Positions 4,970 through 8,280 of a stretch of 64,000 bases of DNA are shown in pieces; position 1 is the stretch's first letter; every line of letters starts with the position of its first letter. Under the pieces are notes generated by a model. That model was not told the DNA's origin, did no database searches, and worked only from the letters and a program-made list of their open reading frames with translations. The translations under genes and the position numbers were made by a program. Source of the stretch: Euzebya rosea (lineage in GTDB: Bacteria > Actinomycetota > Nitriliruptoria > Euzebyales > Euzebyaceae); assembly GCF_003073135.1 (NCBI RefSeq), contig NZ_PGDQ01000008.1, forward strand, positions 124,001 to 188,000, in the 5' to 3' direction.

Positions 4970-6541
4970 TCACTCGCAGAACTGCAGGGCCCCGCCGCCG
5001 TAGAGGGAGGTCACCCGGGAGTCCGGGACGTTGCCGTCGAGGATGGCGTCGATCGGACCCCGGACGGTGTCGACGTAGCCGATGGGCGGGGGGAACTCCT
5101 CCGTCGACCCCTCGGCCAGGACGTAGTCGTGGGCGTGGATGGCCTCGAGCTCCCGGCTGGTGCTGCCGACCGTCACGCCCTCGGGGGTGGACAGCGCCCC
5201 GCCGTCGACGAACCACCCGTCGAAGAACATCTCGCCGACGACGGCTTCGGCGAACGTGGCGGTCAGCCCGTTGTCGAAGGTCACGTACCGCCCGGCGGGC
5301 CCGTCCGGACCGGCCAGCTCACAGGACGGCTGGACGCGTCCGGTGTCGTTGGTCGGTGCACCGAACTCCGCGATCATCGCCTCGAGGGCGACGTCGGCCG
5401 GCTGCCCGAAGTCGATGCCCCGGCCGAGCCCGTCACCCCGGAGCTCCACCGGTCCCGTCGGGGCGGATGCCCCACCACCGTCCGGACAGGTCTGCGCCCC
5501 GTCGACGCGTTCGTGGCTGACCATCGCGACCGGGCCGGCGACCAGCACCTCGGTGGGACGGGCGCACGCCAGGACGCCCTGGGTCGCCGCGGAGTCGACC
5601 TCGGGGTTGATGGCGAGGATGCCGCCGCCGTACTGGCCGACGACGGGGGCGGCGGCCAGGCCGTACGCCCATCCCTGCTCGTCGTACAGGTTGACCAGCG
5701 CCATCGGCCGAGGGGCGCCGTACCCGTCGCGCAGGACCTGGCGGAAGATGGCCGCCGCGGTTTCGTCTCGGGAGGATCCGGCCACCCGGCGGACCGGCGC
5801 GTCGACCTGCTGCATGGCTCCGGCGCTGATCGCCGAGGTCCCGCCCAGCACGGTCACGCGCCGGGGCGATCGACCCTCCAGCCACGAGGTGACGGAGGGG
5901 TGCAGCTCCTCGGTCGGGGTGAACAGGATCGGCCGACGGTCCCGGGCAGCGGCGGGGCCGGCGGCGACGCTGTCGGCCCACGCCGCGGTCGGGTTGCCGT
6001 CGGGGCCGAAGGCCCGCGCCAGGAAGACCTCGTAGGACGCGGGTGCGGCGTCGTCACCGAGGACGTAGTCGGCGACCGCGATCGCGGTCTCGTACCTGGT
6101 CGTTCCGGCGAGGCGGATGACGGGACGGTCGCCGGCCAGGGCAGCCAGCTGCGCCTCGACCTGCGGGTCGATGACGGCGGTGCCCCCGACGATGGTGAAC
6201 TCGCCCTGCGGATCGAGGACGACCCGGTCGAGCTCGGCCAGGGTGTCGTCGTCCAGCGGCTGGCCCGGACTGGCGAAGAAGATCGCCCCGAAGTCCGTCA
6301 GCGCGCTGGCGGCCAGCGCGTCAGCGAACGCGGCGTCGGAGACGATCACGCCCTTGTCGACGCCGAAGTCGTTGACGGCTCGTGACAGGTTCACCGCGTA
6401 CTCGGCCGGGGTGGCGCCGTCGATGCGGGCCACCGCGTCGGGCGTGTTGGAGAAGGGGGCGGGTGAGTACTGGGCGGCGGCGGGCACCGCTGACAGCACG
6501 AGCGCCAGGACGGTGACGAGCAGGGACGACGAGCGACGCAC
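4970..6541 (-). CDS. Secreted protein with type-2 cell-wall-binding repeats
   Basis: 523 residues with a Sec signal peptide ending AAAQ. Residues about 35-345 contain three type-2 cell-wall-binding (PF04122-like) modules, recognisable by paired motifs such as DAAFADALAAS, FTIVGGTAVI, IRLAGTTRYETA, VTVLGGTSAI and VRRVAGSSRDETA. This module anchors clostridial and actinobacterial proteins to the wall polymer. The C-terminal 160 residues form a separate domain with Cys residues near both ends, with no family I recognise. It is the only protein of the four repeat-bearing proteins here without an obvious enzyme domain. The AT-poor 170-base spacer downstream shows nothing notable. Confidence 0.85.
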   Translation of the reverse strand: MRRSSSLLVTVLALVLSAVPAAAQYSPAPFSNTPDAVARIDGATPAEYAVNLSRAVNDFGVDKGVIVSDAAFADALAASALTDFGAIFFASPGQPLDDDTLAELDRVVLDPQGEFTIVGGTAVIDPQVEAQLAALAGDRPVIRLAGTTRYETAIAVADYVLGDDAAPASYEVFLARAFGPDGNPTAAWADSVAAGPAAARDRRPILFTPTEELHPSVTSWLEGRSPRRVTVLGGTSAISAGAMQQVDAPVRRVAGSSRDETAAAIFRQVLRDGYGAPRPMALVNLYDEQGWAYGLAAAPVVGQYGGGILAINPEVDSAATQGVLACARPTEVLVAGPVAMVSHERVDGAQTCPDGGGASAPTGPVELRGDGLGRGIDFGQPADVALEAMIAEFGAPTNDTGRVQPSCELAGPDGPAGRYVTFDNGLTATFAEAVVGEMFFDGWFVDGGALSTPEGVTVGSTSRELEAIHAHDYVLAEGSTEEFPPPIGYVDTVRGPIDAILDGNVPDSRVTSLYGGGALQFCE

Positions 6542-6640: not shown

Positions 6641-7876
6641 TCAGCCGTAGGCGGCGCGGAGGGCGGCCAGTGCCGAGGCGACGACGGCACCGTCGTCCAG
6701 AGCCTCGAGGCGACGCGCGGTCGAGCCGGCGTTGAAGCCCATCAGGGCAGGCTGGCCGACGACCGGCAGCAGGTTGACCCACTCGGCCCATTCGCCGTCG
6801 GTGGTGCCGACGATGCGAATGCCGGCCGCGTCCTCGGCCCAGAACGGCTCGTCGAAGACCAGCACGGCCTTGTCGAGCACCCCCATGCCGAGCCGATCGA
6901 TGGCCCCTCGAGTCGCGGCCGGCAGCGGCGGATCGAACGTGATCGTCCCGGCCTTCAGGACGCCGAGCGGCACGGTGACGATGACCGCATCGGCCTCGAT
7001 CCGACCCCACGGCCCGGCGACCACCACCCCGTCGGGACCGTGGACGACGTCGGTCACGGGGGAGCCCAGTCGCAGGTCGTCGATCTCCTCCTCCAGCACC
7101 TCCAGCAGCGAGCGGTACCCGGCCGGCACGAGGGCGTCGCCGCCGCCGAGCTCGTCCCCCTCGCGGGCCGCATCGGGGGACACCTCGTCGAGGTCAGCGC
7201 CCAGGTCGCGCTCCAGCGACGCGACGGCCTCGTCGACGTCGTCGGTGCCCTCGTCGGTGTCCAGCTCGCGGCGATCGGCGTCGTCGTAGTCGAACTCGTG
7301 CAGGTCGACGGCGGCATCCTCGGCCAGGTCGGTCAGGGGGTTGCCGCGTGTCCCGTGGATCCAGCTGGCGCCGAGGTCCACGGGAAAGCCCAGCGAGCGG
7401 TCGGTCCACACGCGACCCCCGATCCGGTCCCGGGCCTCCAGGACCACGACGTCGATGTCCTCCTCGACCAGGGTGGCCGCGGCCGCCAGCCCTGCCGCGC
7501 CGGCGCCGATGACGACGACGGACCCGGCGTCGGCGTCGTAGGCCAGCTCCGCAGCGTCGATGCCGCTGAGCAGCGCCCCGTGCACGGTGGCCGGGTGGTC
7601 CTCGTGGACCGCTTCGCCGGCGAGGACGAGCGTGTCCCCGATCGGGGTGCGCAGGATCTCCCGGTCCTCGGGCGTCGAGCCGAGGGCGAGGAAGCTGTAG
7701 CTCCCGCCCGCCAGCGGATCAGCGGCCCAGCGGGTGACGAGGGCAGCGGTCGGCTGGGTGACGGGACGGCCGGTCGGCGGCTCGACCACCTCCTCGGCAC
7801 AGGCGCCCAGCAGGACCCCGCCGGTGGCGATCGCCGTGCGGAGGACCTGCCGGCGGGTCCACGAAGGCGCGGGCAT
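6641..7876 (-). CDS. Circularly permuted flavin monoamine oxidase, Tat-lipoprotein type
   Basis: 411 residues. The N-terminus has a twin-arginine motif (TRRQVL), a hydrophobic stretch and a lipobox LLGAC, so the mature enzyme is probably folded before export and lipid anchored. Residues 42-113 contain TRWAADPLAGGSYS, TLVLAGEAVHEDHPATVHGA and ALLSG, which in ordinary amine oxidases form the C-terminus and close the FAD site. The Rossmann motif VVVIGAGAAGLAAA, normally at the N-terminus, follows at residues 121-134, then GGRVWTD and the substrate region. The protein stops at ALAALRAAYG, just where the displaced segment would normally continue. Domain order is therefore rotated with little sequence lost. 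Substrate unknown. Start chosen at the ATG overlapping the DUF1232 stop (TGATG). Confidence 0.85.
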   Translation of the reverse strand: MPAPSWTRRQVLRTAIATGGVLLGACAEEVVEPPTGRPVTQPTAALVTRWAADPLAGGSYSFLALGSTPEDREILRTPIGDTLVLAGEAVHEDHPATVHGALLSGIDAAELAYDADAGSVVVIGAGAAGLAAAATLVEEDIDVVVLEARDRIGGRVWTDRSLGFPVDLGASWIHGTRGNPLTDLAEDAAVDLHEFDYDDADRRELDTDEGTDDVDEAVASLERDLGADLDEVSPDAAREGDELGGGDALVPAGYRSLLEVLEEEIDDLRLGSPVTDVVHGPDGVVVAGPWGRIEADAVIVTVPLGVLKAGTITFDPPLPAATRGAIDRLGMGVLDKAVLVFDEPFWAEDAAGIRIVGTTDGEWAEWVNLLPVVGQPALMGFNAGSTARRLEALDDGAVVASALAALRAAYG

Positions 7877-8280
7877 CAGGCCCGCTCCGCCCCGAGGAGG
7901 CGCTCGATGGTTGCCGGGTTCGCGGGCCACGCCTCCAGCAGTACCGACCTCGGGACCCGACGGGCGGCGAAGCGGAACGCCAGCGCCACGACGACCACGT
8001 CGTCCAGCGGCCCGATGACCGGCAGGAACTCGGGGATGAGGTCGATCGGTGACAGGACCCACAGGCCGGCCAGCGCCACGACGACCTTCGCCCGTCGGGG
8101 CACGTCCGGATGTGCCCGAAGCCGGCGGACGGTGGTCAGGCAGGCCGGGAGGAACCCCGCCAGCTCCTTCAGCGTCCCCTCGGGGAGCCGCGCGGCCAGC
8201 AGGACCATCACCGCCCACGAGGCCAGCACGACGCCGACTGTCCAGCCGACGACCTCCACGACCCGCATCGGGTCCATCAT
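7876..8280 (-). CDS. DUF1232 (YkvA-type) membrane protein
   Basis: 134 residues. An N-terminal membrane helix (about 8-30) is followed by the DUF1232 core, whose signature WVLSPIDLIPEFLPVIGPLD spans about residues 72-91 and continues into a second hydrophobic helix. The family is widespread, membrane associated and of unknown function. Its stop overlaps the start of the amine-oxidase gene by one base, so the two are co-transcribed. Three Met codons occur in the first five residues' region; the first is used. Confidence 0.85.
   Translation of the reverse strand: MMDPMRVVEVVGWTVGVVLASWAVMVLLAARLPEGTLKELAGFLPACLTTVRRLRAHPDVPRRAKVVVALAGLWVLSPIDLIPEFLPVIGPLDDVVVVALAFRFAARRVPRSVLLEAWPANPATIERLLGAERA

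Follow-up and report, generated by a model that had tools for sequence, protein, structure and literature searches.

Monoamine oxidases (MAO), polyamine oxidases and LSD1 are among the most studied flavoenzymes and are drug targets. In their chains the Rossmann motif comes first and the FAD-closing segment last, and to our knowledge this order has been taken as fixed. The protein described here is encoded by Euzebya rosea in a window of 64,000 nucleotides (the whole stretch of DNA that was analysed) and has the three blocks, the FAD motifs, the catalytic lysine and the predicted fold in common with LSD1/LSD2 (KDM1A/KDM1B) and the polyamine and spermine oxidases. Judged by sequence comparison and by the predicted model, it is closest to LSD1/LSD2 and the polyamine oxidases. 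It differs from them in the cyclic shift of its blocks, in a smaller helical part of the substrate domain and in the position of its two chain termini, which lie where the substrate domain borders on the FAD-closing segment. With the natural circular permutations of other protein families it shares the kind of event, the joined old ends, the new ends placed in a loop and a fold that is predicted to be unchanged. The NicA2/Pnao-type amine dehydrogenases, which belong to the same superfamily and are likewise Tat-exported, have an adjacent cytochrome c gene (PMC12224317), whereas none was found for the window protein. The open literature (subscription papers and the full protein databases were outside the scope) yielded no account of a flavin amine oxidase with permuted order, and the word stem 'permut' is absent from a 2025 survey of the superfamily, in agreement with the first-pass annotation, which knew of no earlier description of the arrangement.

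Results

As outlined in the following list (positions in the window), the oxidase chain runs from a leader via the C-terminal FAD segment (VTRWAADPLAGGSYS...LAGEAVHEDHPATVHGALLSGIDAAEL) and a few residues to the Rossmann motif and finally to the substrate/FAD block.

6641..7876 (-), permuted flavin amine oxidase gene, 411 aa; start ATG 7874-7876, stop 6641-6643
7796..7876 (-), Tat-type leader, residues 1-27; R8R9 and lipobox LGAC26, from sequence
7541..7747 (-), displaced C-terminal FAD segment, residues 44-112; TRW..DP...GSYS..GEA...PATVHGALLSG; Pfam, LSD2 and HMM matches
7526..7540 (-), linker between the former C- and N-termini, residues 113-117; from the segment spacing of the family
7289..7525 (-), Rossmann block, residues 118-196; GxGxxG, E147, GGR, WIHG; Pfam, residue conservation and HMM
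7145..7288 (-), shortened helical part of the substrate domain, residues 197-244; from the spacing between Rossmann and Mid blocks
6650..7144 (-), substrate/FAD-domain (Mid) block, residues 245-409; K336 (codon 6869-6871); LSD2 and HMM matches
7876..8280 (-), DUF1232 (PF06803) membrane protein gene, directly upstream of the oxidase

Both TRWAADPLAGGSYS (residues 48-61) and LAGEAVHEDHPATVHGA (85-101) stand before SVVVIGAGAAGLAAA (from 118/119), the Rossmann motif reads VVVIGAGAAGL...EARDRIGGR...WIHG, and about 7 residues (111-118) separate the C-segment from it. The chain terminates in LRAAYG*, the exact point where standard proteins run on into (x)PxPT..VTRW, confirming the earlier claim that it ends where the moved segment would normally continue. 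The twin arginine (residues 8-9) and the lipobox cysteine C26, both invariant in the six-member alignment A1, lie immediately N-terminal to the moved segment, so that the direct joining of a Tat/lipobox leader to the displaced segment was described correctly as well. From this leader, recognized by inspection, it is inferred that the window protein is a Tat-exported lipoprotein. Standard-order Tat/lipobox amine oxidases of Actinomycetota (L051, L054) share the leader type and the putative export route; in standard-order relatives, however, the leader, where present, joins the first Rossmann strand and not the C-terminal FAD segment.

The DUF1232 gene overlaps the start of the oxidase by one base (TGATG) and, as far as this arrangement can tell, is probably on the same transcript. 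As a functional or required partner it was rejected, since another species of the genus (G022, locus L031) has lost about 270 bp, most of the gene, while keeping the oxidase. Beyond close relatives no conserved gene neighbours were found, the commonest being generic families such as transporters and SDR dehydrogenases, and consequently no substrate can be assigned. Directly downstream of the oxidase, a protein with cell wall binding repeats 2 (PF04122) is encoded at 4970-6541 (-), which is also present in the block syntenic with G022.

The order of the segments was confirmed in several ways. The Pfam profile PF01593, proposed as a check in the first-pass annotation, scored 219 bits with the oxidase (cut-off 19.8), the match being split over three stretches, and it matched all 44 members of the permuted alignment A2. 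Alignment with human LSD2 assigned query residues 100-196, 219-409 and 38-109 to LSD2 residues 319-416, 495-694 and 699-770, respectively, which is a cyclic shift. Furthermore, HMMs built from standard-order proteins only located the C-segment at residues 46-110 (91.7 bits), the Rossmann segment at 120-193 (111 bits) and the Mid segment at 245-407 (190 bits), scores which are far beyond chance. All three comparisons thus bear out the claim that the C-terminal FAD segment precedes the Rossmann motif. After reordering to the standard arrangement, the oxidase was 48% identical over 366 aa to the G048 protein, which belongs to the same class and has standard order, with 89% agreement of predicted secondary structure, a local score of 680 versus 537 in natural order and a gap of three residues between the oxidase's new ends. 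Evidently, the protein contains one complete set of segments, cyclically shifted and with the old ends joined by a short linker, as required for a circular permutation. The standard PF01593 order (Rossmann, substrate domain, C-terminal FAD segment) is not met, and with its order C-segment, Rossmann, Mid the oxidase is a permuted variant of the PF01593 superfamily rather than a regular member.

Structure prediction, which had been proposed as a further check, gave a confident AlphaFold2 model from 44 permuted sequences (pLDDT 92.1, pTM 0.89; moved segment about 94-98). By sequence and by fold, LSD1/LSD2 and the polyamine and spermine oxidases are the best solved relatives, with LSD2 foremost by sequence. 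Foldseek, which aligns collinearly, yielded a TMq of 0.65 for the permuted model against LSD2, whereas the standard-order control L041 (pLDDT 94, pTM 0.92) reached 0.91 to the same structures; a difference of this size is what a displacement of about 70 residues together with the leader would produce if the chains are otherwise much alike. The two-domain FAD/substrate fold is therewith met by prediction rather than by a solved structure, and among the best 60 PDB chains none matched the permuted profile collinearly through the junction.

The second species of the genus, whose genome consists of 2 contigs, carries the gene in the same order with 91% identity to the window protein. For this pair dN/dS was 0.16 over the whole gene and low in each segment, the leader, the moved segment and the remainder all showing more synonymous than non-synonymous change, and a second pair gave 0.07. 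The same order in related genomes, for which the first-pass annotation had suggested a search, was accordingly found in one species of the genus but not in two other genomes of it (G023, G024), which gave no permuted match and carry standard-order relatives.

Relatives were gathered by a phylum search, by a scan of named genomes with the permuted alignment and by further searches, and were sorted by the order of the three segment profiles inside one open frame. In the scan of genome contigs matches were obtained with the alignment as query, none with a single protein. In all, 64 different proteins of permuted order and 81 of standard order were obtained, and two C-segments in one protein were not found in either set. 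The initial picture of a single unusual protein was therefore too narrow, and with at least 60 different bacterial proteins sharing the rearrangement the permutation is not a glitch. Permuted proteins occur in Actinomycetota (group codes f18, f27, f62 and f70, records of Acidimicrobiales and of Microbacteriaceae with Cryobacterium and Leifsonia), in Alpha- and Gammaproteobacteria and in Verrucomicrobiota, the carriers outside Actinomycetota including Nitratireductor, Devosiaceae, Sphingomonadaceae and Hyphomicrobiales records as well as one MAG each of Opitutaceae and of Gammaproteobacteria. For some MAGs the label (e.g. Bifidobacterium breve, L133) may stem from faulty binning. Of 397 Actinomycetota genomes drawn evenly, 9 gave a permuted match with E at or below 1e-70, so the permuted form is uncommon but scattered. 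Break point and linker are alike in all permuted proteins, and the spacing of the segment envelopes from C-segment to Rossmann segment varies between 3 and 12 residues (median 7, 62 members).

Two sets of candidates were discarded. Weak matches to residues 55-172 (G002, G003, G007, G008, G019) had suggested distant permuted forms; the ones that were read proved to be alcohol dehydrogenases, phytoene-desaturase-like proteins and further Rossmann proteins, the frame in G002 remaining unresolved. Plasmid matches from Haloarcula, Synechocystis pSYSM and Nostoc appeared permuted only by the way in which the search joins pieces, the proteins being in standard order. The standard-order plasmid relatives L204 (Synechocystis PCC 6803 pSYSM), L203 and L206 (both Haloarcula) are about 43-45% identical in the matched pieces. 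Separately, one permuted homologue (L050/L200, G381), whose frame is broken and whose middle part is missing, is apparently a decaying copy.

The region ahead of the C-segment varies within the family. A Tat/lipobox-type leader was detected by pattern in 37 of the 64 permuted members. In L157, L159 and L164 only a few residues stand before the C-segment, and these members are, by that feature, probably cytosolic. In three actinobacterial genomes a GNAT acetyltransferase-like domain lies in frame ahead of the permuted oxidase (L191-L193; the same genes lie at L166, L167 and L161), with PF00583 found by Pfam in L191 and L192 and L193 similar by eye. It is possible that these fusions are acetylate-then-oxidise enzymes.

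With respect to the FAD-binding residues (GxGxxG, the ribose-binding E, GGR and the GE(A) of the C-segment), G124, G126, G129, E147, G154 and R155 are present in 64/64 permuted proteins, G87 in 63 and E88 in 62 of them, and W50 is nearly invariant; the window protein also keeps K336 and W346. K336, which aligns with the conserved lysine of the family, is kept in 56/64 and is the equivalent of LSD1 Lys661 (K661). In NicA2, K340 is the active-site lysine near the flavin N5 (PMC12224317). The exceptions for K336 include L237 and L238, which are cut by contig ends, and one actinobacterial family (L211, L213, L215, L217; group f62). In these four permuted lipoproteins the catalytic lysine and the WxHG motif are lost and the reading frames are still open; on these grounds the family may have lost catalysis, and its members are candidate pseudo-enzymes. 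The spacing between Rossmann and Mid segments is 47 aa in the window protein versus 76-110 in most permuted members, and a short helical part was found in 11/64 permuted (the window protein included) and 0/79 standard proteins. With the helical part of the substrate domain reduced, the substrate may be unusual and its handling may differ.

Discussion

Taken together, we consider it highly probable that the window protein is a permuted PF01593 member with the predicted fold, an inferred exported and O2-using amine oxidase, and a descendant of probably one origin. For the rearrangement itself, it is proposed that the chain was opened in the loop by which the substrate domain's last helix connects to the strand leading into the C-terminal FAD segment, and that the old ends, i.e. 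the final helix and the first Rossmann strand, were joined by a linker of few residues. The mechanism would be a tandem duplication with loss of the outer parts. This proposal of the first-pass annotation agrees with the break points and with the shortness of the linker; an intermediate of such a duplication was not found, however, as neither a C- nor a Mid-segment lies within 900 bp on either side of the 64 permuted loci.

Whether there were several independent permutations, each in another subfamily of amine oxidases, was judged from trees of order-normalised sequences. Free quick trees divide the permuted proteins into several groups and imply 7, 5, 6 and 7 changes of order; as these short searches need 5-7 changes, more than one origin is not excluded. 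When the permuted proteins were constrained to one clade, however, the likelihood rose by 50.6 log units (p-AU 0.93; 50 permuted vs 64 standard rows) and, for a larger set, by 49.0 (p-AU 0.83; 60 vs 72 rows), the latter 132-row test being run under a simpler model instead of the mixture model. One origin is thus favoured, not proven. Since, in addition, no starred branch forces more than one change and break point and linker are identical throughout, repeated origins seem unlikely to us, and a single origin, followed by vertical and horizontal spread, would be the most probable course.

Regarding its function, the window protein is most likely an O2-using oxidase of LSD/polyamine-oxidase type, Tat-exported, lipid-anchored and with a reduced substrate domain, where activity and substrate represent no more than an inferred class. 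Conserved residues and knowledge of the family suggest that FAD would be bound non-covalently and take a hydride from the amine, that the electrons would pass to O2 with the help of Lys336, and that an aldehyde, ammonia or an amine and H2O2 would be released outside the membrane. A protein which keeps the fold and has no catalysis, i.e. a pseudo-enzyme or binding protein, could be suspected from the short substrate domain and from the four relatives without the catalytic lysine. The window protein, however, retains K336, W346, W50, GxGxxG, E147 and GGR, and the comparison with G022 places the constraint over the whole chain, which makes this reading quite improbable.

The protein could also hand its electrons to a cytochrome c rather than to O2, in the manner of NicA2 and Pnao, with which it shares Tat export (PMC12224317). 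For such a dehydrogenase the leader is present and the CxxCH neighbour is absent: no CxxCH protein adjoins the permuted oxidase at any of 50 loci, and the first 20 kb of the window contain only two CxxCH matches, both in short frames and the nearer one overlapping the DUF1232 gene. Tat-only family members without a cytochrome c neighbour react fast with O2 (PMC12224317). We consequently give the dehydrogenase little credit and infer a Tat-exported, H2O2-making lipoprotein oxidase.

The joining of two adjacent amine oxidase genes by read-through or fusion, combining a C-terminal with an N-terminal piece instead of a complete permuted domain, is the state from which a permutation by duplication would start. 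It is already contradicted by the block counts and the flanks and hardly tenable: every protein holds one full set of three blocks, the 900-bp flanks devoid of C- and Mid-blocks contain only two weak Rossmann matches (downstream of L230/L231), and tandem amine oxidase genes were found at only two mycobacterial loci, both in standard order. Finally, a faulty assembly, or a pseudogene that has decayed or been rearranged in one genome, for which the 40 contigs of the window genome and the broken frame of the permuted relative L050 might be quoted, is refuted by the orthologues and practically ruled out, because G022 shares the order under purifying selection and 62 other distinct permuted proteins exist, several of them in genomes of 1-4 contigs (G301, G272, G311). 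The first-pass annotation was hence right in inferring a real permutation, and neither a misassembly nor a broken copy among related homologues all of standard order, which it had named as refuting, applies.

Conclusions

The existence of a conserved permuted class means that the fold can accommodate new termini close to the border between its two domains. Such proteins are ready templates for amine oxidase engineering, offering new points for fusion or immobilisation and a smaller substrate domain, and the family provides a test case for the rise and spread of permutations. Domain-based annotation can hide rearrangements of this kind. In animals, SSAT and PAOX are separate proteins. It is conceivable, if rather doubtful at present, that one ancient permutation gave rise to a separate, dispersed oxidase class whose freed N-terminus allowed lipid anchors and GNAT fusions, perhaps including an acetylate-then-oxidise polyamine enzyme. 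If true, the N-terminus freed at the boundary of substrate domain and FAD segment would have opened a site for anchoring and fusions, used for lipid anchors in many lineages and for GNAT domains in some Actinomycetota, and the GNAT fusion would be a one-chain parallel to the separate SSAT and PAOX of animals.
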